From Adineta ricciae (lineage: Eukaryota; Rotifera; Eurotatoria; Adinetida; Adinetidae), in the NCBI GenBank assembly GCA_905250025.1, contig CAJNOJ010000021.1, positions 372,001 through 436,000 of the forward strand: a stretch of DNA of 64,000 bases, written 5' to 3'. The notes beneath the pieces were generated by a model, which saw nothing but the letters and a program-made list of their open reading frames with translations, made no database searches and was not told the DNA's origin. A program made the position numbers and the translations under genes. Below, piece by piece: positions 1,125 through 64,000 of this stretch (its first letter is position 1; every line of letters starts with the position of its first letter).

Positions 1125-1618
1125 TTTTGTAAAATGAAAATGTCTCCTATCAATGAATTTTTATATACCTGTAAGACACTGTCATTAGGAAAGAACATCT
1201 GTTGATCCTATCGAATATAAATGATGTTTCAATTACGAATATATCTTTCCATTTTTCCTAATTAAAAGAACAAACTCTCATCGAAATAGTCGATGCAACT
1301 TGTCCCTGTCCTAGGACAGAAACGCTTTATCTTGATTTACTTGCTTTTTAAATGAAATATCGAAAATAACAAATTGATAATGTATGCATGACTTTTGTAT
1401 ACGCAGACATGAACTATGATAATTACCTTAGCAAGCGAAGATTTTGGTATGAGGTCGCTATTTGTCGTTGGGAAACAGGCGAAGCTGCTCTGCAAGCACA
1501 TGATTGGTCTGTCGTCATTTCACGTGTTATCACGATTTTTCGTCGTGCGTTTTTGTTTGATTATTTGTATTTATTGACGCATATTTGACTAATAGCAATA
1601 GTATTTTGTAGCATATCT
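1125..1618. promoter_or_regulatory. divergent promoter region between orphan membrane gene and TBC1D15
   Basis: Some 490 bp of AT-rich DNA between two divergent start codons. A pyrimidine-rich stretch ending in TAG at about 1609-1611 lies just before the plus-strand ATG at 1619 and could be a trans-splice or 5'UTR intron acceptor. No specific factor site is identified. Confidence 0.35.
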
Positions 1619-4130
1619 ATGGCTCAAGACAGAACTTTATACGAACGAAGTCATGTGTTCATCAAAGATCGTCTACCTCAAACGGACACTCGAGACGGTT
1701 CACTCGATGAAATCACAGGCACAATAACAATTACTACTAATGATCGTGGTCGATTCTTTCGATTTCTACCTAAAGGGATCGAAGATAACGTTACAGATGA
1801 TTGGGCACTGGTGAACAATGGTCAATCAGTCATATCATTCAAAAATTCCAAGAATGAAAACAACGCTCTGACATTCTCGCCGAATCCTTTATTGAAATTT
1901 CGTATTCATTTTAATATCAATACGTTGCGAAGTATTCGTCGGCAGCATGTGTTGCATGGCATTGCCAATATGGTCTTCGCACTCAAAGATGGAACGACAT
2001 TTCCAACGTTTTATTTCAATCTTGGTGGAAGCAAAGAACTTTTGGATTTACTTGGTCAATTTTTACGACTGCAAAAGTAAAGAGAAACCGCCAGAGAAGT
2101 TAAGTTTTGATTGTTTGAACTTTAGATCGCCAAGAGATAATCGATTGTATATCGTCAGAGAAGAAATTCCACAAGAAAGTCAACCACAGCCAGCCAGTGC
2201 TTATGATCAATTGAATCTATTCGACAATTCAAATGATCTATTCAAACGGATTGTTCGTAGAAAGTTCTACGCTCGTTTCGGAAAGTTAAATCTTGTTTTT
2301 CTTTTCAGAAAGGATCTGATTCTCGTCGAACAGCAATTGAGAAATTTTCTCGTGTCACTCATTTCTTTAAAGATGCTTTACTTGGCCAAAATGATATTAT
2401 TACCAGTGGTGAACATTCAGAAGCGATTATCGAACCAGACATCACAGCATTGATGGAATCATTTAGTGAAGAATTACGCGAATCGAATAACGATGGTTTT
2501 GAAGTGATTTACAAAGTGAGACACGTTTCCTGTTGAACTTTCTTTCGACATTGAAATTCTGTTCGTTTAGGTTGACTTTAAAAAACTACCACAAGTTACA
2601 CGTTATCCTCCATTGACAACGAAAGAGTGGAAAATGTGCTTGGATAAAGATGGACGCGTGATTGATGTGAACAAAATGAAAGAACGAATATTTCGTGGTG
2701 GATTGGAGTCGAACGAATTACGAAGTGAAGTTTGGAAATTCTTGTTGAACTATTACCCGTGGTCGTCAACATCGGACGAACGAGTGGAATTAGCGAAGCA
2801 AAAAGAAGCGGAATATTTCGCAATGAAACTGCAATGGAAATCCATGAATGAACAGCAAAAACAAAGAAATAATTTATTCAGAGATCGCGAATCTTTGATT
2901 GGTAAATTTTTAATTGTCTGATTGTGTGAGTTTCGTTCGATTAGGAGAAACTTGTTCTCGTAGATCAAAGCTTACCGTAGTGAAGCAGTGTCTTTCATCG
3001 GAATTCTTGACTAATTCTTGTCAATCTCTCTTCTTAGACAAAGACGTTATTCGTACGGACCGAACACACGTGTATTTTCAAGGTGATAACAATCTTCATC
3101 TCGAAGTCTTACATGATGTTCTAATGACTTACAATATGTTTAATTTCGATTTGGGTAAATTGATCTGAGATAAGAGACTCTGTCGAATCATTTGCGGTTT
3201 TGTAGGTTATGTTCAAGGGATGAACGATCTGTTAAGTCCGATATTGATTGTCATGGAAAACGAAGTCGATGCATTCTGGTGCTTTGTTGGATTAATGGAA
3301 CGTATGCAACAAAATTTTCATATGGATCAGTCACATATTAAACGTCAACTGGGCAATCTTCACACACTTTTGCAATTTATCGACGCTGAGCTTGCGAACT
3401 ATTTAGGTAGGATGATTCATTCGAGAAGGATCTTTATTGAACAGTGTGCTTTTCTAGCTGAGAATAATTCCAGCAATATGTACTTCTTCTTTCGGTGGAT
3501 GTTGATCTGTTTCAAACGGGAATTTTCTTTTGAAGATGTAATGTATCTATGGGAGGTAAAAATCGAATACATGGCACACCTTTTCAGTCGACATTGATTC
3601 GTTTTTCTATGTCTAGGTCTTATGGACAGATCATCCGTGTGAGAACTTTGAACTATTAGTTTGTTTGGCTATTTTAATATCACAAAAAACAGTTATTATG
3701 GAATCGAAGTTTGGCTGTAACGAAATTCTCAAAGTAAAGATCTCACTGAAAGTCGAATTTTGTTTCATTTGCATTTCTCGTTTAGCATATCAATGATCTT
3801 TCACTCAAGGTTCAACTGGAACCGTTATTAAAGCATGCTGAAGGTCTTTATATTCTTCTGAAAGATCACGATCAGGCAACTCCTGGCCTTCCACCGCAAA
3901 TTTCGGCCATTATGTTTCCAAATCAGAATAAAAATTTGAAAAAATCGACTAGACAAGATGGTCACGATTCGGATTCTGATGCCACATCTACAATTTCTTC
4001 AGTGAAATCCTCGCGTGGTGCATCCCCGAATCCTGATGTTGAGCACAAGCCGCGAACGAGACACTTAACTGAATCGCATTCAATCGATGAAAACGATAGT
4101 GCAGTTGTTAGTCATACTAAGAAGCCTTGA
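1619..4130 (+). CDS. TBC1D15: TBC-domain Rab GTPase-activating protein, TBC1D15/TBC1D17 type
   Basis: Multi-exon gene whose pieces follow human TBC1D15 from end to end. The N-terminal region starts MAQDRTLYERSHVFIKD. The TBC domain is entered at EWKMCLDKDGRVIDVNKMK. The arginine-finger helix region is IFRGGLESNELRSEVWKF. The NRTDRT-like motif reads VIRTDRTHVYF. The glutamine-finger segment is GYVQGMNDLLSPILIVMEN. RWMLICFKREFSF closes the domain. Family members stimulate GTP hydrolysis on Rab7-type GTPases at late endosomes and mitochondria. Introns are about 50 nt (for example 2077-2125). The tail from 3912 to the stop at 4128-4130 is Ser/Asp-rich and lineage-specific. The start at 1619 is preferred over an upstream ATG at 1388 because it aligns with the family N-terminus. 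CFDP1 follows 224 bp downstream on the same strand. Confidence 0.92.
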
Positions 4131-4301
4131 TTCGAATACTATTTTCTTTTTCGACTTGTTTCTCATTGATTCTTTGTTTTACTTCGGTGTAAATTTCTCG
4201 TTCAAATAATTCTGTACGAGAACAAAGATGCACAATAATATCAATCATTCAACATGTTTTCTTTTCTGTACTCGTCTAACGACGTATATAAATTTATATA
4301 C

Positions 4302-4318: not shown

Positions 4319-4354
4319 CACAAAACTTTATTTATTCTAGAGAATTCGAAGGCG

Positions 4355-4966
4355 ATGAGTGAGAAGAATTTGGTGAACGATGAAGTTGACTCAGAAGATG
4401 ATGAAGACGACGACTATTGTCCCGCAGATAATAACAAACAACAATCAGACTCAAGTGCTGATTCAGAGGATGACGACGAAGGTGATGCCAAGGAAGAATC
4501 AGAAACTACGAAGAAAAATGAATTGAACGTTGCACCTTACGATGAATCAAAAGTCAATGAACTATGGAAGAACTTTACAAGTACGACGGCAAAACCAGTA
4601 GAGAATGTGAAATCAACCGAGTCAAAGCCAGCAACTAAAATATTCGAATACGCTGGTGAAAAAGTCTCGGTACCGATCACAACACCACCAACAGTAAAAG
4701 AAACATCTAATCCATCGATAAAGCGGCCAGCTGCAACATCTGGTTCTGTACTCGATCGTCTTGGCATCGGGAACAAAAAGCAAAAACTCTCCACATTGGA
4801 AAAATCTCGTCTGGATTGGAGTGCTCACAAAGACTCCGAAGCACTGACAGATGATCTCGATTCCCATCGACGTAGTAAAGACTCTTATGTAGAAAAGAAA
4901 GCATTCTTAGAACGAACTGAACTGCGTCAACATGATCATTTTTTAACTCATGTAAAAAAGAAATGA
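4355..4966 (+). CDS. CFDP1: CFDP1/BCNT (yeast Swc5) chromatin-remodelling subunit
   Basis: Intronless 203-residue protein. The N-terminal half is highly acidic (Asp/Glu runs at about residues 11-50), as expected for a histone H2A-H2B binder. The C-terminal BCNT-C domain (about residues 144-196) is well conserved: LSTLEKSRLDWSAHKDSEAL, then SYVEKKAFLERTELRQH. In this family the domain is needed for SRCAP/SWR1-type exchange of H2A.Z into nucleosomes. ATG 4355 is 14 nt after TTTATTCTAG, an acceptor-like site, although the CDS itself has no intron. The TBC1D15 stop is 224 bp upstream on the same strand, so the two may be co-transcribed. A polyadenylation signal AATAAA lies at 4995-5000. Confidence 0.93.
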   Translation: MSEKNLVNDEVDSEDDEDDDYCPADNNKQQSDSSADSEDDDEGDAKEESETTKKNELNVAPYDESKVNELWKNFTSTTAKPVENVKSTESKPATKIFEYAGEKVSVPITTPPTVKETSNPSIKRPAATSGSVLDRLGIGNKKQKLSTLEKSRLDWSAHKDSEALTDDLDSHRRSKDSYVEKKAFLERTELRQHDHFLTHVKKK

Positions 4967-6555
4967 TGTCGCGTTAGATTATTGGTGTTGTACAAATAAA
5001 CATCAGTTCAAAATGTGTTTGTTATATTTTGTTGTTAATTGAATAAAGTAAATCATCAGGCGGACCTGATTCGAAGTTGTGTAGATAGAAGGAAGTAATT
5101 CGATCGGCCTGAAAATCCTACTACTATCTATAATGAGTCAAACATGATGTGTGTATCATTGTCGTCGTTAGCATATTGCAACACAATAGTGCTTTTCATT
5201 TTTAGGCATCACTCATCGTTAAAAATTTACAGCTGTTTTATCAGGATTCAAACGTTGTCAATGGCGATAGACTGAATTATCGTAGAATAGAGTGTAGATG
5301 ACCTAAAATGTCCTATTTCGAAATTCAATTCTCATGACTGTTCATTGATTCTGCGAGAAATTTTCACCCAATATGCGATTGAGAACAGATAATAAACGAA
5401 GCAGAGGAGTTTATTTATTACCTCAAATATCAAGAATACTTCGGTGTTTTATTACTTCTTCACTCTATTGTTAATCGATTGCAAAACATGACATTCTTAT
5501 CTATTCCAAAATCATAATAGCCAAGTGAATGCACACAATATGATTTGGCTTTTCTTAACCATTGTATTAAATCATTCATATTTGCAAATTCAATAGTAGA
5601 ACAAGTCTTTACATAAATGCGACGTGAGAAAATTCTATAGACTAAGCTCAATCCTTAGGATAAGATTACTTATTACAAAGTAGTCTACTTCTATTGACTT
5701 GTCACGAAGGTTGGGAAGATGCACAACCATCGTGAAAACGATACGATAGGCAACATGTTGGTTCTTGCGGCAACGACTGTTTTATTTTTATGCATTCTGA
5801 TTTCTCAATGAGATTTCTTTGATCTTGACCATACGAACTGTCAAATCTACTCGACGTACAAATATCCAGGCATACTCGAACTAATACAATTGAGTTTCTC
5901 TTACTTTGATATTGAAATAACGAGTAATTTACATCTTTCTGTTCTCTCCCGTTTTTCTCTCTCTCTCCTCCTCCTCTCTCTTCGTCTATACAATAATGCG
6001 TCAGTTTAATCGTCATTTCTACGTTCTTTCTACAAGAAGAGAACAGTGAGAGAAAGAACGATGCGGAATAAAAAGTAAATGTATGTTACGAGGAAACCAG
6101 TCACTATTCATTTCAGTCGTAAAATAAGACACAACGAGTCGTATACGTATGTTGGTTACTGTAATTTTCTTTCTTATGTTAGGTCAACGACATTATTCTT
6201 TCTTTTCACTCACAATAGTCTTAAAGAAAGGAGAAAGAGACAGTGCAGGGATAATAAGCACAGTAGAGAAATGGACGGCGTCGCCGTCGTCGTGTGTACA
6301 AAAAGATCTAAGAGGTAGTTACATCAGTACAATTCGATATGTCATGTTATATTATTTGCCCGGCAGAGTTGTAGACAGACGTTGAAGAAAAAGAAAGAAA
6401 TGAAACAAGGACTCTTATCAATCAATAACGTATAGAATCATTCACTTTTTTTTTCAGTATATGATGTTATATTAACAAATCATATGTGTAACAAATGTTT
6501 CCTCAATACGCACAACGTAAGTTTTTCTCTCTACAGTACACTGTCTTCCTCAATT
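4967..6555. other. gene-poor spacer
   Basis: About 1.6 kb of AT-rich DNA with a CT/TCC-rich tract at about 5956-5982. Two minus-strand open frames (5460-5651 and 5702-6016) contain several cysteines, but no clear splice path joins them and no domain is visible. I do not call a gene here. Confidence 0.4.
4995..5000 (+). terminator. poly(A) signal of CFDP1
   Basis: Canonical AATAAA 29 bp after the CFDP1 stop codon. A second AATAAA follows at about 5042. Confidence 0.55.
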
Positions 6556-7895: not shown

Positions 7896-8744
7896 TTAAC
7901 AACAACCGCCGCTGCTATTCTTCTTCAGCGCGACTGGTTTTGCTTTGTCATTCAGACGAAATGACTTAGTATTTGTTGAAATTTCCACTTGAGCATCGGT
8001 TGTATCGGTTGTGACGGGCACTGTTGATGAATGGTCAGTTGCTGTTGAAGCAGTTGGATTGTCTACTGATTTGGGTATTTTCTTATAAAAGACACTTTTG
8101 ACCAATGTAACGAACGCTTGTTCGACATTCGATGCATTCAATGCCGATGTTTCCATGTACGAGACTTTCAATCGTTGTGCGAGATCTTTCGCTTGATCTT
8201 GGGATACTTTCCGTTGATCGACTAAATCAGATTTGTTTCCAACAAGGACAATTGGTATGTCTGCTGGCGTATGTCGATGTAATTCTTCTATCCAAGTGTT
8301 AATGTGTTCGAATGATTCGGGTTTGGTTAGGTCGAAAACAGCTAGGGCACCTTCGCTACCGCGATAAAATTGCGGTATAACAGTCTTGAAGCGCTCTTGA
8401 CCTGCTGTATCCTAAGATTGTTGATAAAGCAGCAAAGATTTCGAAAGAGGAATATTTCCCTTGAAAAGTATTCACCTACCCAAACTTGTGTTTTGATCTT
8501 TTTCCCTTCGATTATTATTTGCTTGTAGGCAAATTCGACTCCGATAGTCGATTGCGTATCGAGACGAAATTCATTACGTGTGAAACGTAATAAAAGATTA
8601 CTCTTCAACGAAAAAAGAAAACGAATGATTTACATTTATGACTAGATGAAAAGACCTGCAGCATACCTTGCCGACGGAGCTATCGCCTATAAGAACCACT
8701 TTAAATATGAAGTCATATTCAGACCCTCCACCTGATTTGGCCAT
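7896..8744 (-). CDS. Rab11-like small GTPase (238 aa)
   Basis: Three exons in phase: 8744-8667, 8602-8480 and 8411-7896. All five G-motifs are present: GDSSVGKS (P-loop), STIGVEF (switch I), DTAGQERF (switch II with the catalytic Gln), NKSD and ETSAL. FTRNEF before switch I and [11 protein letters not shown] at the N-terminus are typical of the Rab11 group, which controls recycling endosomes and exocytosis. The protein ends SGGCC, a double-cysteine geranylgeranylation signal. The linker before it (about residues 180-230) is unusually long and Thr/Ser-rich. [20 protein letters not shown] departs from vertebrate Rab11, so this may be a lineage-specific paralogue. TTTTTGTTTAG ends 22 nt before the ATG and looks like a splice acceptor. 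Confidence 0.88.
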
Positions 8745-9208
8745 GATTAGAGAGAATTTTTCGTGTCTAAACAAAAACGAATGTAGTCGACTACTCATGC
8801 ACTCGCACATATTTCTCTTATTTTATTCATCCAAAATTATCTTATCAGACGAAACGTGTGCTACAAGAATAGGAAAGGTAAGCGAGCAACAAAAAAAAAA
8901 AGAGCTTGGCAATTATCACAACATGTTATTCTTTCGTTATTTCATCAGATAGAACTAAAAGACATGCATCCTACACAAGACAATGAATCACCTACGAAAC
9001 AAACTTCCGTGTCCATTTCTCACAGTGATTAGTCTGTTAATAACTCAATTCGAAAACAGACGGGGAACAAGACTTAGGTTCCGCAAACGAGTGTGTTGTT
9101 CCGCTCTTAGAGAAAGTCTATGTTTATTGTGCGAAATATGAAAAAATGATAGAAAATCAAAATGCATAAGTTAATCGAAAGGTGTCTCTATCTCTGCATG
9201 AATTACAG
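8745..9208. other. intergenic region between two minus-strand genes
   Basis: AT-rich spacer holding the Rab promoter side and the thymosin gene 3' end. No further feature seen. Confidence 0.4.
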
Positions 9209-9742
9209 TTACTGCTTTTGTTTTTCGTTCAAATAAGCTTGTTTTTCGTTCAAATAAGCTTGCTTTTCGTTAAAATAAGCTTGCTTTTCGGCATCGCTCA
9301 ATCCTTCTTTAGGCGGTTCATCGACATGGTGAAGTTCGTGTTTACCACCTTGTACTTCTAGCAGAACTTTAGCTTGAGTAGTCGACAGCGGTGTGCCTGG
9401 TGGTTCAACGTGGTGAAGTTCATGTTTGCCACCTTGCACTTCGAGTAAAACTTTCGCTTGAGTGGTCGACAGCGGTGTGCCTGGCGGTTCGACATGGTGA
9501 AGTTCGTGTTTGCCACCTTGCACTTCTAGAAGAACTTTCGCTTGAGTAGTGGACAACGGTGTGCCTGGTGGTTCGACATGATGAAGTTCATGTTTGCCAC
9601 CTTGCACTTCGAGTAAAACTTTTGCTTGTGTTGTTGATAATGGCGTGCCCGGGGGATCAACATGTCTTAACTCATAGTCCTGTTTTGTAACTTCGTCTAG
9701 CACAGCTTTTTGCGCCGATTCAATTGCATCGTCTGAAGACAT
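9209..9742 (-). CDS. multi-repeat thymosin-beta/WH2-like actin-binding protein (177 aa)
   Basis: Intronless. After MSSDDAIESAQKAVLDEV the protein is a tandem array. Four exact or near-exact 28-residue units read HHVEPPGTPLSTTQAKVLLE followed by VQGGKHEL, preceded by one divergent unit (LRHVDPPG) and closed by HHVDEPPKEG. The C-terminus has a heptad-like NEKQAYL repeat. LHHVE/LRHVD matches the thymosin-beta core (LKKTET in vertebrates; nematode tetrathymosin has LHHVE), so G-actin binding and sequestration or filament regulation in the cytoplasm is the likely role. At the DNA level the 84-bp units differ mostly at synonymous positions. TCTATTTTAG ends 19 nt before the ATG. Assignment to the thymosin family is by motif only. 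Confidence 0.65.
   Translation of the reverse strand: MSSDDAIESAQKAVLDEVTKQDYELRHVDPPGTPLSTTQAKVLLEVQGGKHELHHVEPPGTPLSTTQAKVLLEVQGGKHELHHVEPPGTPLSTTQAKVLLEVQGGKHELHHVEPPGTPLSTTQAKVLLEVQGGKHELHHVDEPPKEGLSDAEKQAYFNEKQAYLNEKQAYLNEKQKQ
9282..9660 (-). repeat. 84-bp tandem coding repeat
   Basis: Four to five in-frame 84-bp units (28 codons each) within the thymosin-like gene, highly alike in protein but with scattered third-position differences. The 3' part of the gene (9209-9290) also has three 21-bp units encoding NEKQAYL-type repeats. Confidence 0.85.
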
Positions 9743-11127
9743 AGTAAAAGTAGTTATGTATCTAAAATAGAAACGGTTCTTCTATCTGTTAAAATTGCAT
9801 CAGTTATGCCGATTGTGTTCTACAAATAATAAAGAATTGTTTTCTTTCGTATTGACTTTAATGTCTCGGAAATACACTATTGCGCAGTTACTAAACTATT
9901 TCATCGATAAGCTTAGCACCTGTTCCTGTTTTTCGTCACAGATAGAATTCACGATGAATTTCAAAAATGCATTGTTACCTATTTCACAAAGCTATAGTCA
10001 CATGAACTAGTTTACAGACTAGTAATGCTAATTTATAGGGTGGATATAGAAAGTAAAGCAATGAATCAGTATGAAACAGAGTAATAATTCTCTTGTCTCT
10101 TATCTTCAATTCTTTTTTTCTCTTTCTCTCTGCGTTATTTGACCGATGTGATGTATACAGAATTGTCAGGTGTTGATAAAAGTATTTATTTTCTTCTTAT
10201 TTGAATAAAGTATTAAAGAATGAAAAACGTATTACTGTACAAATACGCAACGTTTTACTCGAATAATTCCATACATGTATAACTTGAAATTTGAATTCAA
10301 CTCTTCAAATATTCAACCATTTCAAGTATTCAGTATCAAAGTGAAGATGCTAGAATAACTGGATAGTTTAAATATCACAATACTTGTATTCAACTTTCAA
10401 GTTTGACACTATTGTCTTTTTCCAGACAATAATAATTGAAACTCGCTTGTGACTGCAAATCCAACAGTGTTTCTCCTACGAAATAGTTACTTGCAAATAA
10501 TAAGATGAATCTAGCGACATCCATATATCTTCATTGCTCAATAAAACAAAGAAGACATTTTGAAAAAATATTTTCAATGAAAAATTCATATTAGATTATT
10601 GAATGATACTTTATCTGAATGACTCGTAATCGACCAATTAAAGGATGATAATGAATTCGTGCATTCGCGGCATATTGCAGACGCGGACACTGATTCGTGC
10701 AATTGACGTCAAATACCGCGCTGTTCTCACCAAACACAGTTTCATTGACTTTGTATATCAAAATCATCGATCTTTTCGACGAGCACCACTGTTATTTCAG
10801 AAAGTAGAGCAGCGTATCCCTTGCTAGTTTTCTTCGGACATATGACTAACTTAAAGACGAACCACATTCTGAGTACATAGAGATACGAAATTGTGCGAAA
10901 CATCTGTTTAATCGAATCTTTAATCTAAATCTTCCAGATTCTACCATACACTTTCTTTTCTACAGTTCTATGAGAAAATGATTACTAGATATTACGATCA
11001 ATGACTCATTAGCGTTTCTTAAGTGGGAAAAAACTTTAGTGTGTGTCCTATTCTCGACTGAATAAATATTTAAAGTATATTTATTTGCTAAGACCGGTAC
11101 TTTCTTCTAGATTGTGTTTCTTTGAGT
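9743..11127. other. gene-poor spacer
   Basis: About 1.4 kb, AT-rich, between the divergent thymosin-like and B-box genes. Short open frames occur (for example 10645-10827 +), but they show no splice context or family resemblance. Confidence 0.4.
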
Positions 11128-13167
11128 ATGACAGCCACTCCTAAACCTTTATCGATCGTTGCTAAATGTGCTTTATGTTCAACAAAAACTGAATTATTCG
11201 TATGTCCACATTGTGATGAAGTAATCTGTCAAGTTTGTGTGAATAAGCATCGATCCATCTTGAATGAAACACTCAAAGAGCACTGGCTAAAATGTAAAAC
11301 TAAATTTCAGAATCTATCTCAATTATCAAGTAGGAACTTTCTTTCGATGATCGATCTCGTTGTTTATCGTTAGTTTTTTGTTTAGATAACTATGATAGAG
11401 ATTTTAAATCAGCTGAAAATGAAATCGATCGAATCAGACAAATGCTTGAACGAAGATATTTAGAATTCGTTCAGTCAATAGATAATGAAAAGAATACGCT
11501 ACTAATTCAAATAGAAGATCATATTCGTTCTACATCGTCTCAGTAATTACATCGGTTTGTTTGTTGATGGAAATCCTTGTGTTTGCTTTTCCTTAGTGTT
11601 AAACATGCAGACGTTCAGCAAGTATTTAAATCAGTTCATCAACGACTCAATGAATATTTTCAGTAAGAGTTTTCTTCTCCGTCAATCAAATATTTTCATC
11701 CTTCTCTAGGGGAACAAACACGGCATACAATACAGATGATTTTCTTCTAGAAATTGAACATCTGAATAGACAGATTACTAATCGAGAAAGATTTATGAAC
11801 GATGACACTTTAAAAGTATGACTTATCGATCTGCAGCGCTTGCCTTCTATTTTGTATTCGTAGTATCCGTATTTAACACCTTCCAAACCTTTAATTATCT
11901 CGGATGTCTTTGGTGAACTACAATGGAATTCTAAACCGATGTCAATTCGTAATTCACCTCGATCTCTAACTGCGAATGGACATAGTTCACGAAATAGTGA
12001 TGGATGGCAGGATGAATCGTCTAGTTTACCCGATGAAATAGAACAAGATGGCCTTCCAGCGGTACCTGTGATGCGAAAACAGAGACAATGGTCACTGGAT
12101 GCGTCCGGTGTTCCACACTTTCTCTGTATTCTTTCGAAAAAGAATTATCTTTTATTTGCTTGTGATAAATATGGTTGTATCGATTTGTATCAACTCGACG
12201 GTACTGATCCGAGTGTTCCACCTCGTCATTTACGTCAATTTGAGTTATTCTCTGGAAACAGTAGCAGTCAAAAACCACAAATTATCGAGGCATTTACGGT
12301 CTACACACCATTTATTGTTGTTTCAGCCCGTGAGTGGAATAAAATTGAGGAAGGTCATCAACTGATTCATTTGGTTGACTTTTAGATTTGAGTGATCAAA
12401 CAGATACAAGTTCGGTTTATTTTTTTGATCATCGTGGAATTCAGCAAGGTGAAACTTGCCTTCAGAATTTTCCTGTTCGACAATTGTCAGCTGATACTGG
12501 CTTTAAATGTTTGTGGGGCGTCGATCGACATCAACATTCAGGTAGAAATTGTAAAACGTGAAAAGACTGATTACAATCATCGATTTGTTCAGTCTATTAT
12601 AACCAATTGCCAATGAATGTGACACAAATTCAACAGTCAATTGATCAACGGGAAGAATTCATCATCTTCGGACGTGATTTCGAACCGATTCGGTAGGATT
12701 TCTTAAGAATAGATCGTTCTGTCACAAAATACCATTTATTTCTTAGAATAACACAAAACCAAACGTCGATTGCTGTTGTCGAACGTAATTCTCAAAGTGT
12801 ACACATCTTTAACAAACAAACAAAAGAGCAAGTGGATGAAATACAAAACCTTCTTCGTACCGATGGTACCTTTCGCTTGTGGAATGTTCTCGTACGTAGA
12901 TATTTGTGCAAAATTTCTAAAATTTATATTTTGTTTTCATAGCTCCGCGATGACAATTCCATGGTTCTCAAACTAGACGAAGATTTACCTCCCTACAGTC
13001 GTCCACAAACAATTCATCATCTGATTGTGGAACTCGACCCCAAAGGTGTTCCAGTAGCACAAATAGAACGCACTGCTGTCTATGGGCTTGCTATTGGTCC
13101 TAATCAAGAAATTCTCCTTGGTTGCAAACGACATCAACAAAATGGCTCGATTGAATGTTATATCTAA
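11128..13167 (+). CDS. B-box/coiled-coil TRIM-like protein without RING
   Basis: Multi-exon gene. The first exon gives a B-box-type zinc finger (CALCSTKTELFVCPHCDEV then ICQVCVNKH). Next come coiled-coil exons (for example AENEIDRIRQMLERRYLEF). The C-terminal half is probably a beta-propeller, starting RQWSLDASGVPH and LFACDKYGCIDLYQLDG and ending GLAIGPNQEILLGCKRH, with the stop at 13165-13167. Tripartite-motif proteins usually carry an N-terminal RING for ubiquitin ligation. None is seen upstream, so this copy would be a RING-less regulator or a scaffold. It is a tandem paralogue of the next gene, sharing the W-x-LD...VP...CDKYG signature. The exon opening after TTTCTTCTAG (11101-11110) sits 17 nt before ATG 11128. 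Internal exon limits are approximate. Confidence 0.75.
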
Positions 13168-13454
13168 ACTTAATTCGATTGTTTCTTTTAATAATATTCG
13201 TATATGATTGGCAATTAGCAATGTTTCATTTCCTTCGAACAGTTTGCTTGCCGTTTTAAGATCTCTTCTCGAGGTTATATTTTTTTCGGTCAGATTTCAC
13301 ATAGAAAAAAAGCCAACAAAATGAGAATATCGAATTTCTCATATATTCTTCCAAAGACACTTTTCTTTTCTCTTTTAATGTATTAAAGAATGAACTGAAT
13401 AACTATTTTAGATATATATACATCTGTAAGAAGAAGAGTACGCGAATTTCAATC
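13168..13454. other. spacer between tandem TRIM-like genes
   Basis: Under 300 bp of AT-rich sequence between the tandem paralogues. An acceptor-like AG lies at about 13429-13430. Confidence 0.35.
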
Positions 13455-15831
13455 ATGATCAACGCTAATCTTATCACCTGTGCACTTTGCCGGAATTACT
13501 ATGCGGATCCTCGTCAGGTAGGTAAGCTCGTAAGGGAAATCACGATTTTATTTGTTTTTTTTTTCAGATTCCCTGTTCTCATTCATTCTGTTTCGATTGC
13601 CTATCCGGGCGTTTTGATGATGAAACATTGATACTAATTTGTCCGAAATGTGATAAACTTCATCAGTATAATTCACGTGAGGAATTCGAAAATCGTTGTA
13701 TGCGTGATGGCTTTCTTAAGTCAATGGTTGCACAATTCAAACGAAATCAAAGTCGATCATCCGCAATAGCATCCGGTCTTCATTCTCGGCCAGCATCGTC
13801 CCTATCACAAATTGTGCCGATGAATGGCTTTACACCGATACGTCCGGTTTCTCAAGAGGTTAATTCGAGTTTTGATCAAACTTGTTCGGAACGATCGACA
13901 CCATCGATTTATAGTCAAACCAGGTCGTCCTCAGTGTTGCCAACAATAGCAAATCGTGTACTCATAGCCAAATGTCAATCATGTAATATGAAAGGTGAAC
14001 TAATTGTATGCAACCATTGTGATAATGTGATCTGTACTAAATGTGCTGATGAACATCAGAGCGTGATTAATGATGATGTCAAACGCGAATGGGATCTATG
14101 TAAAAGCAAATTTGATATAATTAGTGAACGATCGAGTATAAACATGATTTAACAAGAAGTTGTGATTGATTAAGAAAGTGCTCGTTTCCTTCTAGTTCGT
14201 TTTGAGGCTGATCAAGAGGAATGTGAACGTAAGGCACGTGAATTGCAAACATTAGTGGGCGAACGAGGTGATAAATTAGTGCAAACAATTAATAATTATA
14301 AAAATGCGTATATGGATTTCATTGAAAAACATCGACGAACTCATAAACAAGTGTAAGTAGATTAATGAAATCAGAATGCTTTGAAATTGTCTTGAATTTC
14401 AGTTGTGCACGTGAGCAAATTATTGATGAGTATGAATCTATTGATGACCGCGTCAACAAACTACTAAAGTAATCGATTCCCATATGAATTTATTCCATAA
14501 TCAATTCATTTATCTATTTCGCGTAGATCTGCAGATATAACTACTGAAAAGATGGACGATTTTTCTTTTGAAATCGAACATCTCGAAAGTCGTCTAGACA
14601 GTTTAAATGCAATTCTTGATTCGAGTGAATTAAAAGTAATATCCTCGTCTGCTTCTCTCTCTTTCATTCCATTTTAATCAACCATCTAGTTTCCCGTGCT
14701 GACATTACCTGAACAAATCGACATCTCGTCGCTTTTTGGTACATTGAACTTTCTCTCGTTGAATTCACCACATTCGAATCATGTGAAATCCAAACCTGAT
14801 CATGATGATTATCTTCTGCTCGAGTCGTCTCAACCACAGCCGCATCGATTCGATCAAATATCCCCACCATTGCCGGTTCCTCAAGCAATGAAGAAAAAAC
14901 TTCTCTGGCAACTCGATTACAAATCAGTCCCATATTATGTTCGAACGTACAACAATCAGTTATTCGTTTGTGATAAATATGGTTTGCAAGTGACTTGATT
15001 GTCAGACATAAAACTTTTTCTCTTCTGTCTTTAGGATATTTGTCAGTGTATAAATTAAATAGACCAAATGATTTTCGAGCCAAACCAATCTTCGTCCGAG
15101 AAATTAAATTATTCAACGATAATCCTACCGTCTTGTCGGACGAAGATCAAACAATCATCGATTCGTTTGTTGTCTACAAGTTCTGGATAATCGTTTTTAA
15201 ACGAAAGAAAAATGAATTACATGGTACGATTTATGTATTCACATATGATGGTAAACTTCTTCCCAACGGTAAATGTGTACATAACTATCCATCACGTGAA
15301 TTAACAATCGATGTGGAAACCAATATCCTCTGGTCACTCGATCAAAAGCAGCTTTGTCTTTTTTATTATCAGTTGCCCGATCAAATTAGCCCGACTGACC
15401 AAATCGAAGACGTGTTTCACAATCGTTATTCACACGTACAATTTTCGAAACCATTCGCACCCAAACATATCTCCGTGAACAAAAATGTTCTCGCTGTCTT
15501 GGACAAAAACCGACAAGCTGTACATGTCTATGACAAGAAAACGCAAGAGGAATTGTACCAACATGTGAACATTTACAATCATACCACGCATTTTTGTTGG
15601 GACATGGCGCTGTTCTCGGACAATAGTCTGTTGATCAAACTTGACGAAACGAGTACGTTGAAAGCCGGCCCGTCGAAACACATCTATTTACAATTGGACA
15701 CAACGAGTCAACGCAATGTGATCGGAATTATCGAAGAAACCGATGCTTATGGAATGATAATCACGGCGACGGATGAGATTTTGATCGGAGTGAGAATAAA
15801 TACGAAAGGAACTGTGAAATGTTATGGTTGA
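13455..15831 (+). CDS. RING/B-box/coiled-coil TRIM-like E3 ubiquitin ligase
   Basis: Exon 1 (13455-13516) and exon 2 (from 13568) join to a C3HC4 RING: CALCRNYYADPRQIPCSHSF then CFDCL and CPKC. A Ser-rich linker is followed by a B-box (CQSCNMKGELIVCNHCDNV then CTKCADEH), coiled-coil exons, and a C-terminal propeller-like region. That region begins LLWQLDYKSVPYYVRT and LFVCDKYG and ends ATDEILIGVRINTKG, with the stop at 15829-15831. Such proteins transfer ubiquitin to targets chosen by the C-terminal domain. The C-terminus resembles NHL/WD-type propellers of the TRIM2/3/71 group rather than SPRY, but repeats are degenerate. It is the RING-bearing partner of the tandem pair and converges with IFT43. 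Confidence 0.8.
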
Positions 15832-16070: not shown

Positions 16071-17046
16071 TCAATTATCGGATTTGTTATCGCATTGCGA
16101 ACTTCAACAAAAAGTTTATCCCAATCCCATACTTTCCTATCCTGAAAAAAAAGCGAAGGTTATTCACGAAGCGAAAGAAGTGATTTTACTTCAGTATCGA
16201 TTTCTTCTTGCAAGTTAAGATTGTGATACAGAATTCCTATGTCGATTTTGGGATCCTGAGAAAATAATACTTCGATGGGTTATTATTGAAATCTATACTT
16301 ACAATATATTGACTGGCGCGTGTACGAGAAAATTCTTTCTCGATCTCCTTAAACGTTGCTATTTGATGAACAGAGAATCTAAATCATAGGGACACAATCA
16401 ATGGATCAATTCAATTTTAGTATCGATTTACTCAGGAGCAGCTTCAGTTTCGGGAGCCATATCAATCCTCTCGTCATCATCAGCATCGTCCATTGGGATC
16501 GTCGGAATATCTATACAGTAAGGATAAGAAAAATTGCCCTTTCTCAATCTAACTGAATTCTCACCAGCAGCAACAATTTCTTCAGGAGCTCGACGAGTGA
16601 TACTTCGTCGAGGCATAGCAGCTTCAATTGGTATATCTCTAAAATGAATTACGAGTCATTATCTAGAATATTCATGCCACAAGCAGCGTACCCTTGATCA
16701 TCGTCGTTATTGGCATCATTTGACCAACCTCCTGTAGCTTCGACTGCAGGCTTTTGAACTGGTTTTTGCTTTGACGATGCTGCTGTACGAGTCACCACCT
16801 AGAAATACTAGTTCATCATGCCAATCAATTTCACTTCAGTAACAGCATTCCCTACCTTTGATGCACTGTCTAACATTGCATCGAGCTCATCCTCAATTCC
16901 TCCATCAAGTGCCTGGGCTGGTCCTTTAGATTTTCTTCTTGCCTAAAATTTGGGAGCACATTTCTCGCGTGATTGAAACTTCCGTAAAACTGCGAATTTA
17001 CCTTTGATCTTGATTGTGCATCGCCAAGTCGATCCTCACCTGGCAT
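16071..17046 (-). CDS. IFT43: IFT43, intraflagellar transport complex A subunit
   Basis: Several short exons on the minus strand. The order of motifs matches IFT43. A basic/acidic N-terminus starts MPGEDRLGDAQSRSK, then GGWSND, then RRSITRRAPEEIVAAG, then DIPTIPMDDADDDERIDMAP. The conserved C-terminal half contains ATFKEIEKEFSRTR, DPKIDIGILYHNLNL and VWDWDKLFVEVRNAITNP, with the stop at 16071-16073. IFT43 binds IFT121/IFT139 in the IFT-A complex, which drives retrograde transport in cilia. ATG 17046 follows a T-run ending in AAG four nt upstream. Centrin-3 ends 147 bp upstream on the same strand, so the two cilium-related genes may share a transcript. Confidence 0.9.
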
Positions 17047-48447: not shown

Positions 48448-48649
48448 TGAGTGTAAATAGAAACGAACGAACGAACGAACAAACGAACGGAACACTCAAC
48501 TGCTTTCCTTTTTTTTCTTCGCATTCATCATTCTAGAGGACCGAACGGTTAATTTCATTGGTGGAGAGGAAAAGCCTCATGGACACGGCGAATTGAATCA
48601 ACGTGATTGATGTTTATTTCTTCTTTTTCTCATAGACGAGTTTTATGAG
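48448..48649. promoter_or_regulatory. compact divergent promoter, AF10 / MGRN1
   Basis: Only 202 bp between opposite start codons. It contains an (AACG)n run at 48461-48490 and, near the MGRN1 side, TTTTTCTCATAG ending 14 bp before ATG 48650. Confidence 0.5.
48461..48490. repeat. (AACG)n tetranucleotide repeat
   Basis: About seven copies of AACG/AACA in the AF10 5' region, 14 bp upstream of its ATG on the minus strand. Confidence 0.8.
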
Positions 48650-50256
48650 ATGGGGATCTATTATAGTTTAATATCAAATTTTTCATCCCCAACGGAACCA
48701 ACAGCTCCGAATGTTCGAATGAATTCCAAACTGAGAAAACGACGCCGTCGACGACACAAACGACATCATCTACTAAATCAATTTTTTCTCGGTTCGAAAC
48801 AGTTTTTAGTTAATACCCAACCAAACACATGTCTTTTCCATGAGTATTACCATTTAAATACAAGAAAAGAGTCCATCAATCCGATACAGTTACACATTTC
48901 ATTTCCGGACAATCATGAATCGACAGTGATACGTCCCGTGCAGTGTACAGTAGCCATACGAAGAGATTCATTGAAATTAGTTCATTGTCAGGACGATTTC
49001 TACACTATTGATTTCATCTTCGATGCAGACCGACCGGTTCAAATCTACAGTAAGCTTTTCTATCCTAATTTCTCAAAGAGTATTGATTTCTTTCAGTCTA
49101 TCTCATGGCACACGAAGTTTCTACGAGTAATAATGGATCATTGTCATATGTATGTTGTAATCAACTAACAGATTCCGATACAGTGAAGCGAGCTTACGTA
49201 TTTAATCGACCTGCTGGCCATGGTCAACTATTTTCATTGATATCCGACGATATTCGTTTTCCTCTGTCGTTACTAAATGATGATCATCATAGTTGCACAG
49301 TGAAGACTCGCGTCTACCCAATTGTCATCGTTTGCCGAGAATTAACTTCCGAAATAACGAAGTAAGATCTTTTGTTTTAGCTGATCACACTTATTTCTTC
49401 GTTTCAAGAACGATTCCGGAGCAAATTGCATCATTTCCAACATTCAATCAGTATCATATTGTTTTGGCGACTATCCGGTCACTTCGATGCAATGATACAA
49501 AGTTGCCGATAACTCCTGATCGCGTGTCCATCCTTTTGCTCAGTCAGAAACATGTATACAATGGAATTGTGTTTAAACTATTTGAATTATATGGTATCGA
49601 GAACTCGCCATCGAAATTCAATTCCAACGATCACCGTACACGGAAAAAGCATTCTCTTGTTCAAATTGTCCCATCGATACCAACAAGCGAAAGCGAACCA
49701 TTTTTGAAACAGTATGTATCAATGGTTTTTTACTTAACCTAAATGTCGATGTAATCTGGGAAAATCATTAATTTCGAACATCCGAACCGACCCATCCACT
49801 TTTTCTTTGTATTTCAGTTCAAATGAGATAAATATCGTGAGAAAATCATCGTCCGAGTTGGATTTAGCATTGAACCCGGCGAGTGAAAGTACGTGTGTGA
49901 TTTGTTTAACTGATAATCGTAATGTTCTTCTACTCCCGTGTCGACACTTCTGTTTATGCGGTTCGTGTGCTGAAAATCTGAAATTTCAATCAGCAAACTG
50001 CCCCATATGTCGCATCCCATTCCGCGCTCTCTTACAAATCGATACATTGTACTCTCGGCGACATCGCTTGCCAGATAACTGTCTCCAAACTCGTGAAGAT
50101 GAAGGCGACGACGACGACGACGATGATGAATTAATGTTTGAAAATATTTCACTTATTGATGCATTGAATCTTTCAACAACGAAATCAACTCATCGAAATC
50201 AACAGAATATTACAACTAATGATATCAAGTATTTCTGTAATGAACATTCAGTTTAG
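48650..50256 (+). CDS. MGRN1: MGRN1/RNF157-type RING E3 ubiquitin ligase
   Basis: The start MGIYYSL provides Gly2 for N-myristoylation, as in MGRN1. The family substrate-binding region is present: VAIRRDSLKLVHCQDDFYTI then DFIFDADRPVQIY, YVFNRPAGHGQLFSL, and TRVYPIVIVCREL. KLFELYGIENSPSK precedes the RING: CVICLTDNRNVLLLPCRHFC, LCGSCAENLKFQSANCPICR and IPFRALLQI. A C-terminal ISLIDALNL matches the family ISLLEALN motif. MGRN1 ubiquitinates TSG101 and melanocortin-pathway receptors in vertebrates. An ATG nine nt upstream of the CDS opens an 8-codon uORF overlapping the start in another frame. Acidic run at about 50101-50130. Confidence 0.9.
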
Positions 50257-55548: not shown

Positions 55549-56038
55549 TGTGTATTGTTTCATGCTTGTCAAACCTCATTGTCTCTTTCTCTTTATACAT
55601 ATGTGTAAATTATCGTACCATCTGATTTTTTCATTCTTCTCTCTTTTTTGCAATTTTTGTTATTTCTGTTTTCTTTTTCGAGACATTCGTAAATAGGATC
55701 CTTTGCATATATAAAATATTTATCTCTCTTACATCCATATGCCATAGAATTTCCTTTTCTTTGTTTTTCTCACAAATGACAAAAACAATCAGAGCAAAGC
55801 AATGCAAATGCAACCTTGTTACATCACATCAATTCTCATTCTTTCAGTACATATCTTTCTTCGAACGAGTTATTCTTGCTCTTAATTATGTGTATACGTG
55901 TATGAAATTGTTTTATTTATAAATACTTTCCGGAAAACAAAACATTTCTCCTGACTTACAAGAATGTAGTTTCATTTTGCTTTTTCTACATTCATATTTC
56001 TAAATGAACCAATAAACTTTAGATTATTTCTTGCTTCA
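55549..56038. other. intergenic spacer
   Basis: About 490 bp, T-rich, between two plus-strand genes. AATAAAC ends shortly before an acceptor-like CTTTAG (about 56022) 16 nt ahead of the NRBF2 ATG. Confidence 0.4.
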
Positions 56039-56872
56039 ATGGAATTTCACGAACCACCGTCACTTCCTCTCGTACGTAGCACTTCGGTCATTCGCGTACA
56101 TGTCTCTGTTTTTCGGCTTTTGCAGGCACATCAACAGATTCGTCTGGGTGATATTCAAGCATCGGCACATAAATGGGCAGTTGCTATGGAATACTATGCG
56201 GCCGCGATAGGTTCGTTGATGTCTTTATCGACCTTTTCATAAAATCTCTTTCAGAATGTTTCAAAGCAATTCAGAACAGTTTGTCAGACGAGAATCTTCG
56301 ATTCACAATTCAAGCTCAGATTACTCAATGTAACAAAACAATTCAAGTCTGCCGATTAAAAGATCGATCAGAACAGGTAAATGAATTCGCACGTGGAAAT
56401 AACTCCTCGGTTTATTTTATATCAGGCAATCAAACTTCAACAAGCGGAGCGTCTATCAAAACTCACGCGAGCACATTCGACATCGAATTTAAATCCATCG
56501 ACGAGATCTAATCGACCAATGACGAGACACAACACCATTCAGTTAGAGAAACATGACGTTTTAAGTGGTATGGACTCGTTTGCAGCGTTTATCTTTCCCA
56601 AACAAACTTCTACGACCGATTCAGCACCGAAAATTGCGAAGAAAAACGAAAAGCATGATGCACATAAAATCGAAGAGCTGCAAATGAGTTACGAAGCATT
56701 GAAAACTCATTTGAAAGCTGCATTTGACGATATCGAACGGCTCAAACATGAGAACAATCAACTGCGTATACAACGCGAAACTAGTACAATTCAAGAACAA
56801 AACGAAATGACACTCTCAACGAATAGCGATGACGATAATGGTACCGAAACGGAGTTAGAAGCGACTTTGTAA
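56039..56872 (+). CDS. NRBF2: NRBF2 (Atg38-like) autophagy PI3K subunit
   Basis: Exon 1 (56039-56071) encodes MEFHEPPSLPL and joins in phase at 56126 to AHQQIRLGDIQASAHKWAV, matching the human start MEVMEGPLNLAHQQ. The N-terminal MIT domain continues AMEYYAAAIECFKAIQNSL. A Ser/Arg-rich linker and a coiled coil (EELQMSYEALKTHLKAAFDD then IERLKHENNQLRIQ) follow, ending in an acidic tail. NRBF2 dimerises through its coiled coil and binds ATG14-VPS34 through MIT to raise PI3-kinase activity at autophagosome initiation sites. The product is about 220 residues, shorter than human (287). Confidence 0.88.
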
Positions 56873-56958: not shown

Positions 56959-57084
56959 CAGATGTTTTCTTTAAACAAGATTAGCCAAAGATAAAACTTC
57001 ATCTGACAAACACACCTTTCAGTTTCTCATGAGACTCATTTTCGACTATAGAAGGCGTACTCATGCTAGCAGGCAATCAGCAAG

Positions 57085-57356
57085 ATGTTGAAAATCTATA
57101 CCGTTGGTATTTTACTCGTTTTGGTAGCGGCCAGTTTCGCCCAAATCAATGATAAATGTCTTCAATGGATTTGTAAGATCGAATCCGGCTGCCGTCCACT
57201 CGGCTGCGCCTGAGATGTCAATTAAAACAAGCCTACTGAATTGATTGCGGTAAACCAGGTGGTTCACGATGCACTGGTGGCCGAACGCCAACCTGCCAAA
57301 AGGCTGCTACCGTTGGATATTGGAATAAAGTTGCTGCATGCTACAACTCTAGTTAA
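57085..57356 (+). pseudogene. i-type (invertebrate) lysozyme pseudogene
   Basis: From ATG 57085 an intact signal peptide (MLKIYTVGILLVLVAASFAQ) leads into CLQWICKIESGCRPLGCA, the conserved start of i-type lysozymes. The frame then hits TGA where Trp or another residue is expected before DVN. The usual SLSCGYFQI segment is missing. After small frame changes a second TGA replaces the Trp/Tyr of the (P)Y-W-IDC motif. Reading resumes as IDCGKPGGSRCTGGRTPTCQ, skips the YARIHNGGP segment, and ends KAATVGYWNKVAACYNSS with TAA at 57354-57356. Intact relatives are secreted peptidoglycan-cleaving enzymes of digestion and immunity. Two stops plus two internal losses mean this copy is inactive. Confidence 0.8.
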
Positions 57357-59641
<2,285 letters not shown>

Positions 59642-60049
59642 TGTTTTTCCTCTTTTGCTTTTTTCTTTCGTGAGACATCCCGCGTCATGTTTGACAAGAA
59701 ACTGTGAACATAGTAATGAAAACGATTAACATTCACTTGTATGTCGAATAACACATTACTGATATCAGTCAAATACCATTCTTTATTTCGTATTCAACAG
59801 GATTATCGCGAAGAATGATGATTCCGAAGATAAGCTAGATGTCGCTTATAAACAATGAAGATATCATCATCTATACGTCAACTCTTCAGATTGGTGAATT
59901 GATCCACCCGTGAAATTCTATATTCTACTTCTGATGAATGAATTTTCGATCAAATCTCATGTCTATATGTCAAGGAATTCCGAATCGAATCGATTCTTTT
60001 CGTTGTTACAGATTATGAACTTCCGAAAAAAAGATAATATGTGATTAGA
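59642..60049. other. intergenic spacer with uORF before MGAT1
   Basis: About 400 bp. TTTTCGTTGTTACAG ends at about 60011, followed by a 10-codon upstream ORF (ATG about 60015 to TGA about 60044) just before the MGAT1 ATG. Confidence 0.45.
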
Positions 60050-61834
60050 ATGCGATCGATTCTGAAGAAAATCTTGATCACAACAGGTGTCTTCTTTCTG
60101 ATTAACATTCTTCTATTGATCAGTTTGAAAGGTTTTCAATCACCGACGGATAAACATGATCTGGTAGGTCTGCACAAAATATCTTCGTCATCATGTTTGA
60201 TTTATCAATAAATACTCCCATAGGCACTGCCAATTGTCAGACCACGTCACCCAAAATTTCCAGCACTCGCCACATCTACACTTCCATTCACTGTGTCTTT
60301 GCCATCTATTAAAGTGAAACCTCGTATCTCACGTGAAATCATTCGATCTATTTTTTAATTCATATAGAAAACCGAAACCGTTTTGCCAGTGGTTGTTTTC
60401 GGCTGTAATCGACCACGTGCTCTCCAAAAACATATCGAAGCACTTCTCCGGTATAATATTCTCGATCATTCATTTCGCGTTATTGATTTTCATTCGTTCA
60501 GAATTCGTAAAAATGCCGAATTACATCCGATTATAGTCAGTCTAGATTGTCATGATCAAGATACCATTCAAGCTGCGAAAAACTTCGGTGACAAAATAAA
60601 ACTGATCATTGACGTAAACCATCTTGTGAACATTGCATCTAACTGTCATTGACGTCTCTTTAGTTACCCGATCTTGGTCCAATTCATGTCCCCGGGCAAT
60701 TTGAGCACATGGCTGGATATTATAAAATCGCTCGTCATTATAACTATTCGATTAATTATGTTCTCAACAAACTTAACTATGATGGTATTATCATAACCGA
60801 AGGTTGGTTCGTAGTTTCAGAAATGTGTATATACTGAATGAGGTATATTTTTTGTTTTTAACAGATGATTTGGAAGTCTCACCTGATTTTCTCGATTATT
60901 TCCAAGCGCTGTATCCGTTGTTAATACACGATAAAACCGTGTGGTGTGTATCGGCTTGGAATGATAATGGTATTGACAAAAAGATCGCTAAAGATTCGAG
61001 TACGAAGAACATAGTTTTCAAATAGTATGCTAATGTCTGTTTTTCTTCTTGTAAAGCTCTTCTTCATCGTACGGATTTCTTCCCCGGTCTTGGTTGGCTG
61101 TTGTCGAAAACGGTTTGGACTGAAATCAAAGAAAACTGGCCTGCAGGGTAAGTTTTTTAAAGATGTTTTAATGGATTAGACGACGAAATAGTATAGATTT
61201 TGGGATGATTGGATGAGATTGCCGGAACAGCGGCGTGATCGTTCTTGTATTCGACCGGAAATTTCACGGACAGCTATGTCGCCCGAAGGAAAGAAAGGTG
61301 TTAGTCAGTATGTATTGGGCATTGTCAAAACACGCTTGATTCTGTACAACTGCTTTCTAGGGGTCAACATTATGAGAAATATCTAAGAAAAATCGTTAAA
61401 AATAATGAACCGGTCGACTGGAAATCAATCGATATTAGTTATTTGATGAAAGTAGGTCCAAAAAGTGAAGAATTCGTTAAAACAAACTTCATTATCGTTC
61501 GCATTTAGGACCGATACGACCCAATGTTTCAAGCCCGTGTTGATGCTTGTCCAGTCATCACTGTGTCTGATTTAGGACACCTGAAATCCGAAATGAAGTG
61601 TGCTCAGATACGTTATAGCAACGAGAAAGAATTCGTTGCCGTGGCTAATGCTCTGGAAATTATGAATGATTTGAAGGTAGGCTAATCACGATTTTGCAAG
61701 AGAATATATTTCTCATCGATATTTCATTGAAGAGTAACGTACCTCGAACGGCGTATCGCGGCGTTGTTCAATGTCAGCATGGTCCAACAACAGTTTATGT
61801 CACACCAAGTCAACGACCATGGAGAGGCTATTGA
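60050..61834 (+). CDS. MGAT1: GlcNAc-transferase I (MGAT1)
   Basis: Type II Golgi protein: short cytoplasmic MRSILKK, one transmembrane helix ([19 protein letters not shown]), then stem and catalytic domain. Motifs follow MGAT1: [54 protein letters not shown], the metal-binding EDD in [72 protein letters not shown], and [11 protein letters not shown] near the end. MGAT1 adds GlcNAc to Man5GlcNAc2 and so opens hybrid and complex N-glycan synthesis. About eight exons with short introns. The C-terminus stops soon after [13 protein letters not shown] starts 200 bp downstream on the same strand. Confidence 0.92.
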
Positions 61835-62034
61835 CACTCAGTCTAAAAACCGTCAATAGTTCAATTGTTGAAATATTCGTTCTTTTTATTTTGTTTGCTT
61901 TTTTCTTAACTAAACTCGTGAACTCAATTGTGATAAAGTCAATTGTTTCTTACAGTGCAACGTTATTTAATCGTACATCTGTTTTCTAAATAATCTCGTT
62001 TGCAAAAAAAAGAGTCTTCACAGCATTGTTTCAG

Positions 62035-64000
62035 ATGATCGTCCGACAATGTCTGTCCGATCGTTTTCGTCAAATAATTCGTTTATCATTGAATCATTTT
62101 CGTTTTCAATCGACTCGTCGAACGAATCCTTTAGGTATTCAAATGTTGAGTACACAGTTACATCAACAGTTATTTCCATCTAATCGAGAACCGACATTTC
62201 CAGATGAAATCATTCAAATAGCAGAAAATCATTTGAAACAATTCGAACTCGGTTCACAGAACACTGAAGTACTTGAAGACATTGACTTTACTTTACCTAA
62301 CTTGGAAAGTGAAGATCTGAATGAACATTTTAAAGTTATCGCAAAGAAGCAATCAGCACCCTATGTGAAGCTGATTAAAGAATTGATGGAAGCTAAAATA
62401 CCAGCTCAGCCAACGGAATGGATTTATGCGAAAGGATGGACAAAGTTTGTGTTCGGATCCGAAAAGACGAAAGTTATTCAATGATGTTTCTATTTGAAGA
62501 TATTTCAATAATGGCCAACAACCAGTTTCTGTGCCGTACCCTGAGGAAAAGGTGATGGTGTTTGATGTGGAAACACTAGTTTCTGAAGGCAATTTCGCCG
62601 TGTTAGCAATCGCTCTTTCATCTAAACATTGGTACGTGATTTCAATCATACATTTCTCGACATACTTTTTCTTCTATTCACAGGTATTCTTGGTGTAGTT
62701 CACGTCTAATCGACGAAGAATTTCGTTTCAAGTCAAACGTCGAACTGAATGATATGATACCCATGGAATCCGATCCATCAAAACCATCGTTAGTCATCGG
62801 ACATAATGTCGCATTTGACCGTACATATATTAAAGAGCAGTATCAAATTCAAGTAAGGCCCACGATTTGTTTCCGTTGGTAACTGAAACGATTTGATTAG
62901 AAAACAGGCATGTGTTTTCTTGATACGATGAGTTTACATATCATGTGTTCGGGATTTACACATGCACAGCGAATGCAATACCAAGCCTTCGAAAAAGGTG
63001 CTACGGCAAGAAATAGTGACAAAGAAGAGATTGTTGAAGGAGTCGTCGATGAGCAGAATCTAGAGATCTTACTGGAAGCCGAAAAAGAAAAAGATTTCAA
63101 AGCATACGCAAAAATGCGGTCTCTTCAGGTAGGACAAGCCATTAAATGATTTCTTTATGTCATGTTTAATCACAGAATCTTCGATGGAGACTGGAAAGTA
63201 GTTTGAACAATCTCGTCGCTGTACATAAACTTTACTGTAAACCAAAGAAACCATTGAGCAAAGCAATGCAACAAGTGTTTATCGATGGTAATATGTCAGA
63301 TGTTCGTAAAAACTTTCACGTAAGTTCTCCATTCTCTATTGTAAGAGAGAATCTCATCCGGATGATTTCCTCCAGAATTTAATGACTTATTGTGCGAATG
63401 ATGTTCAAGCAACATTTGAAGTTTTTCAAAAGCTGTACCCCATGTTCGAAGAACGGTAATCAACTCCATTTACTCTTCTATGTTTCATAGAACTCTGAAT
63501 GACCCTAGATTTCCGCACCCGGTAACTTTCAGTGGCATGCTGGAAATGAGTCGAATGTTTTTACCAATTAACAAGAATTGGTCAAGGTTTATCAATGAAG
63601 CTGAACGAACGTATGAAAGCATCAATTCAGACATTCAGCATGTACTCATGCAGATTGCTAATGAAGCATGCCAACAAATCACTGATGAAAAGTACGATAT
63701 CGATCACTTTTTTTCATATGTGTATTCGATGCGATGTTAGATATAAGAACGATCCGTGGTTGTGGGATCTGGATTGGAATACTCAATCCGTCCGCTTTCT
63801 CAAATCGACGAAAGCTAAAGCGACGAAAAAGACAATTGAACAAGAGAAAGCAGAAGATAATCCAATTTTTAAAATTGCCGGAAATCAATGGCAGACAAAA
63901 ACAATGATCGACGATGATCCACAGTTGAAGCCTAGTCCAGCTGTGCAAAACGTTTTGAATACATATTCGTCATTGTCGAAAATTCAGCCACATATGCCCG
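62035..64000 (+). CDS. POLG: mitochondrial DNA polymerase gamma catalytic subunit (5' part)
   Basis: Runs off the right edge. The N-terminus (MIVRQCLSDRFRQIIRLSLN) is Arg-rich and amphipathic, as a mitochondrial targeting sequence. NPLGIQMLSTQLHQQLFPS and IYAKGWTK match POLG. Exon 1 splices into KYFNNGQQPVSVPYPEE, giving Exo I VMVFDVETL. Exo II is VIGHNVAFDRTYIKEQY and Exo III is LMTYCANDVQATFEVF, so the 3'-5' proofreading residues (D, E, D, D) look intact. FPHPVTFSGMLEMSRMFLPI and WSRFINEAERTYE follow, then the spacer begins (YKNDPWLWDLDWNTQSVRFL). The polymerase domain lies outside the window. The ATG directly abuts CATTGTTTCAG. Confidence 0.93.

Follow-up and report, generated by a model that had tools for sequence, protein, structure and literature searches.

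Acceptor-like AG sites before start codons and the case for spliced-leader trans-splicing in a gene region of the bdelloid rotifer Adineta ricciae

In a stretch of 64,000 nucleotides (nt) of the genome of the bdelloid rotifer Adineta ricciae, referred to here as the window (contig C21, positions 372001-436000; assembly of 130.46 Mb in 1033 contigs), an AG resembling a 3′ splice site lies close to or directly against the start codons of many genes. This raises the question of what would be joined to the message at such a position. The original prediction for this DNA had proposed the addition of a spliced leader (SL), and this reading was supported when the predicted leader was found as a multicopy RNA gene in the same genome. 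From the sequence we place the probability at about 0.92 that the AG sites before the ATGs are the 3′ splice sites of outrons, which would receive the SL by trans-splicing.

Acceptor-like sites at the start codons

The gene starts, 29 in number, were set by hand across the whole window, and every recognisable gene was kept whether an AG was present or absent. Weight matrices for donors and acceptors were trained only on 116 internal introns from the window, from 20 kb on either side of it and from a homoeologous region on contig C177; in the gene models used for this training the 95th percentile of intron length was ~436 nt. A start was scored as passing when an acceptor at or above the 10th percentile of internal acceptors (cut-off 0.31) was present ≤45 nt before its ATG. 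Such acceptors were found at 18 of the 29 starts and, as a control, at 283 of the 1255 ATGs that fell outside predicted genes (Fisher p = 7.8e-6), which bears out the claim that acceptor-like AGs precede many start codons here. When the upstream 70 nt were dinucleotide-shuffled 500 times, the mean was 10.1 and the maximum 17 passing starts of 29, and the value of 18 was never reached. The AG abutted the ATG at 4/29 starts compared with 21/2644 other ATGs (p = 1.2e-4), and the statement that nothing remains between the two in ANAPC5 (ATG at 18452), FBXO28 (24768), SLC25A42 (26163) and POLG (62035) was exact. Furthermore, the starts chosen blindly by a small gene finder on C21 passed in 14/27 cases against 569/2432 for the controls (p = 0.0013), and genome-wide TTTTTTNCAG was directly followed by ATG 126 times and by ATC 75 times (p = 4e-4).

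Because ~22% of the control ATGs also pass the same acceptor test, several of the single acceptor cases are probably due to chance. Two of the 18 passing starts are weak, both in small secreted-type genes (starts at 57085 and 1124), and the GPCR, NWD and SLC35-like genes are examples without an acceptor. Among 16 genes that had been named as carrying such sites, 15 could be placed and 14 of these pass; NRBF2 fails with a score of −2.07, and the gene termed CAAX was not identified.

Spliced-leader RNA genes and their U2 neighbours

A 17-mer of the SL matched the genome at 41 positions and its reversed pattern at none. All 41 matches were the exact 22-nt exon GCTTATTACAACTTACCAAGAG followed by GTA, which continued as GTAA in 32, GTAG in seven and GTAT in two. 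Allowing up to three mismatches in the 22-mer gave 47 matches, namely the 41 exact ones, three with one mismatch and three others, at C6:248897 (decayed and without GT), C64:150138 (without SL context) and C43:405226 (included in the count only). The exons are largely arranged in divergent pairs (34/41 in 17 pairs), and 14 of these pairs are 157-160 bp apart. The exon is identical at 22 of 23 nt with the published rotifer leader GGCTTATTACAACTTACCAAGAG, as printed in Table 1 of PMC3795323. The base before GCTTATT is T in all the genomic copies and G in the printed consensus, where it may be a cap-derived base.

The folds of four single SL RNAs gave z-scores of −5.5, −5.4, −1.8 and −3.1, with three stems in two of them. 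The consensus of 30 distinct SL RNAs folded into a hairpin of the SL and donor region and a strong 3′ stem, with both-sided changes indicating covariation in 6 of 23 pairs; the middle stem of the two single folds was absent from it. With its ends predicted, the SL RNA would be ~105 nt long.

Rfam detected 15 U2 small nuclear RNA (snRNA) genes (RF00004) genome-wide, 13 of which have an SL exon no more than 1.1 kb away, when both exact and one-mismatch copies are counted. The linked SL and U2 genes were found on contigs C6, C8, C43, C76, C99 and C112 (loci L018, L019, L020, L021, L022, L023 and L027), and the U2 copies on C155 and C186 are unlinked. A TGT...GAC pattern was present upstream of 30/41 SL genes and of eight of the nine U2 genes examined out of 15, starting 47-49 nt before the SL exon, 47 nt before the main-class U2 and 58-59 nt before a second class of U2. 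This second class, represented by five of the nine, has an altered 5′ stem I and GAUCGA for GAUCAA with the branch-site region intact, and was located at L022:4924-5118, L022:7694-7887, L018:6635-6829, L019:8929-9122 and L027:2798-2917, the L027 copy being without the middle part including the Sm region. The linkage of SL and U2 genes bears on the origin of the SL RNA genes.

Homoeologous copies, donors and the rival explanations

Homologues of much of the window were found on C177 in the same order and with 65-80% identity, the DNA search having covered the window outside 40001-44000. Bdelloids are known for degenerate tetraploidy, and the C177 block fits it. The alignment to C177 took in 18 of the 29 starts, the remaining 11 having no usable match. 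The window starts of kindlin and AF10 are uncertain because there is no ATG at their C177 counterparts, and both were dropped; the comparison was made on 16 ATG pairs, in four of which the aligned point was shifted by hand to the nearest ATG. The acceptor scores of the two copies were correlated (Spearman 0.63, p = 0.009, n = 16), and the acceptor status agreed in 12/16 pairs (both pass in seven, neither in five, only the window in two and only C177 in two). In this paired subset 9/16 window starts pass (binomial p = 0.0036), and in TBC1D15 a gap of 7 nt between AG and ATG is kept in both copies despite differing upstream sequence.

Ordinary cis-spliced introns of the 5′ untranslated region (UTR), for which each gene would have its own upstream non-coding exon, would use the same acceptor consensus. 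A donor at or above the 25th percentile of internal donors was found 44-110 nt upstream of none of the 18 passing window starts, whereas such a donor accompanied 23% of the 290 decoys (binomial test, p = 0.009); the same cut-off is reached by 77% of the 116 internal introns, a value that is close to 75% by construction. The rank test of all donor scores found the starts to differ from the internal introns (p = 1.8e-10); starts and decoys did not differ significantly (p = 0.18). Longer introns do occur, as the 95th percentile above indicates, and this speaks for cis introns. Up to 500 nt upstream, however, donors were no more frequent than at random positions: those reaching the internal median were found at 4/18 starts against 34% of random positions, and those reaching the 25th percentile at 7/18 against 71%. 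Cis introns of the 5′ UTR are disfavoured because these donors are missing in the window, and as a general explanation they are improbable. On C177, a donor-like GT was present 44-110 nt upstream of four of nine passing acceptors (p = 0.13 against 23%), and because of these a few sites may still belong to cis introns.

The other explanation, that T-rich AGs are frequent in AT-rich intergenic DNA and the good ones were picked by the reader, would be consistent with the ~22% of non-coding ATGs that pass (so perhaps 6 of the 29 are accidental) and with the blind starts on C177, but is opposed by the excess at 18/29 starts (p = 7.8e-6), by 0/500 shuffles reaching 18 and by the correlation of scores with the C177 copies, and deserves almost no credence.

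Several results weigh against trans-splicing, among them the donor-like GTs on C177 just described. The blind gene-finder starts on C177 were without enrichment (6/19 compared with 397/1769, p = 0.24), and the genome-wide excess of TTTTTTNCAG before ATG was not significant when set against the reversed patterns (56 and 50; p = 0.11). The 2×2 table of acceptor status in the window and C177 gave p = 0.07 taken alone, and the gap lengths of the two copies were uncorrelated (n = 7, p = 0.61). The canonical Sm motif (RAU4-6GR) was present in 0/40 SL RNA genes, one of the 41 being cut by a contig end; a segment ACUUU (ACTTT in DNA), found past the 3′ stem in 34 of the 40 (L001 and L018-L028), may replace it. 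Genomic fossils of the SL were also sought, and CAACTTACCAAGAG without the following G occurred twice in 130 Mb, with no convincing SL-bearing retrocopy. These two matches had at most one further SL base and neither heads a convincing gene, and they were treated as chance.

Trans-splicing of the SL is the reading that we prefer. An SL RNA of the predicted length, from at least 41 genes elsewhere in the genome, would donate an exon of 22-23 nt ending in CCAAGAG before GTA, and this exon would be joined to the AG near the ATG, giving mature mRNAs with the order SL, 0 to ~45 nt, ATG. The expression of the SL RNA and the use of the SL by the listed genes are steps that we infer. On this reading the leader would be added to about half of the genes (18/29 at face value) and the rest would start conventionally. 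The analysis suggests that SL target genes in bdelloids are recognisable from the genomic DNA alone, with no need of RNA.

Individual sites, gene chains and known systems

The sites amount to a gene-by-gene list of candidate SL targets for testing. The Pfam scan took in 10 gene pieces and matched CFDP1 (BCNT), SLC25A42 (Mito_carr), POLG (DNApol_Exo), MGRN1 (RING), NKX1 (homeodomain) and TBC1D15 (RabGAP-TBC); the four pieces of thymosin, FBXO28, SLIMP and ANAPC5 had no Pfam match, and these are presumed names that partly follow the earlier reader. The other gene names are likewise presumed. Rfam at gathering cut-offs found nothing within the window.

The four abutting sites are those of ANAPC5 (TTTTTTCAG before the ATG; 18437..18454, plus strand), whose C177 copy passes with a gap of 33 nt and a hand-shifted start; FBXO28 (TTTCTAG; 24766..24783, minus strand), 174 nt past the SLC25A42 stop and called by the matrix; SLC25A42 (TATATAG; 26161..26178, minus strand), where the matrix favours a different AG 44 nt upstream over the abutting one; and POLG (GTTTCAG; 62020..62037, plus strand). 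Short gaps, also called by the matrix, were found in the SLIMP-like gene (2 nt; 23459..23478, minus strand; 255 nt past the FBXO28 stop), IFT43 (6 nt; 17044..17067, minus strand), TBC1D15 (7 nt; 1597..1621, plus strand) and CFDP1 (14 nt; 4326..4357, plus strand), the last being 224 nt past the TBC1D15 stop (TGA at 4128-4130). The gap in NKX1 (58824..58857, plus strand) is 11 nt by the matrix or 16 nt by eye, with TTTTCTAG, and that of the MGRN1-like RING gene (48621..48652, plus strand) is 14 nt, its C177 copy scoring below the cut-off.

Both copies pass in the B-box gene (gap 17 nt; 11096..11130, plus strand), the thymosin-repeat gene (19 nt; 9740..9776, minus strand), the Rab GTPase (22 nt; 8742..8781, minus strand; C177 start shifted by hand), NTF2 (36 nt; 32575..32628, plus strand) and an unnamed membrane-protein-like gene starting at 6495 (37 nt; 6443..6497, plus strand). 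The C177 copy of the thymosin-repeat gene has a strong upstream GT besides its acceptor. The acceptor of the MGAT1-like gene has a gap of 38 nt (59997..60052, plus strand), and its C177 counterpart, an AG at 37 nt, is below the cut-off. The weak acceptor of the small secreted-type gene at 1124 (gap 44 nt; 1122..1183, minus strand) scored 0.78, at the 15th percentile of internal acceptors, and is probably chance; that of the similar gene at 57085 (gap 33 nt; 57037..57087, plus strand) scored 0.96, at the 17th percentile. The RING/B-box gene (gap 43 nt; 13397..13457, plus strand) fails with 0.26 against the cut-off of 0.31, and its C177 copy passes. The AG of NRBF2 (gap 16 nt; 56008..56041, plus strand) fails the matrix in both copies, with an identical AG distance. 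Separately, the region 10260-10760 of the window is occupied by a dispersed repeat that gave numerous short matches to other contigs, and is possibly a mobile-element remnant.

SLC25A42, FBXO28 and SLIMP form a chain on the minus strand (window 21852-26163) that looks operon-like, its members being 174 and 255 nt apart. The acceptors of its downstream genes abut the ATG or are 2 nt from it. Five poly(A)-type hexamers were sought in the 174-nt gap, and all were absent. Among the window genes, grouped by eye, an acceptor was present in 8/11 downstream genes of tight tandems (<500 nt) and in 10/18 others (p = 0.45). We would offer only tentatively, and regard as rather unlikely, the wider proposal that bdelloids have SL-resolved operons, in which each chain would be transcribed as one unit and resolved into separate mRNAs by the leader, and the SL RNA genes would have arisen within U2 clusters and have promoter elements in common with them, perhaps together with a variant U2. 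According to PMC7986045, there had been no report of operons from rotifers. Among the papers listed in the literature search, none announced rotifer operons or rotifer SL-U2 linkage in its title or the opening lines of its abstract, subscription journals lying mostly outside the search, so that this is no proof of novelty. With such closely spaced chains, whether rotifers have operons can be put to a direct test.

The system can be compared with three known ones. The U2 snRNA genes adjoin the SL genes, and a proximal sequence element (PSE)-like element is common to the SL and main-class U2 genes; in contrast to U2, the SL RNA is without the canonical Sm motif, and the Rfam matches at four SL loci, at E values up to 1, were to U2 only. 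Nematodes have SL1/SL2 leaders and operons, and the likeness to them is in the multicopy SL RNA and the acceptors near ATGs, whereas a single leader family is found here and operons are only a candidate. The third is the bdelloid SL of Pouchkina-Stantcheva and Tunnacliffe (2005), for which PMC1925144 and PMC3795323 confirm that bdelloids employ a spliced leader, as had been stated. The former gives the same 23-nt exon joined to >50% of transcripts in two bdelloid species and no SL addition in the monogonont Brachionus, and because of this report the mechanism itself is already known. The proposed widespread use agrees with that figure, the 18/29 starts coming to about half after the 22% control rate. 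The likeness further extends to 22/23 exon nucleotides, the GAG exon end, an SL RNA of ~100 nt and its predicted addition to over half of transcripts, and the difference is the T found here for the printed G before GCTTATT.

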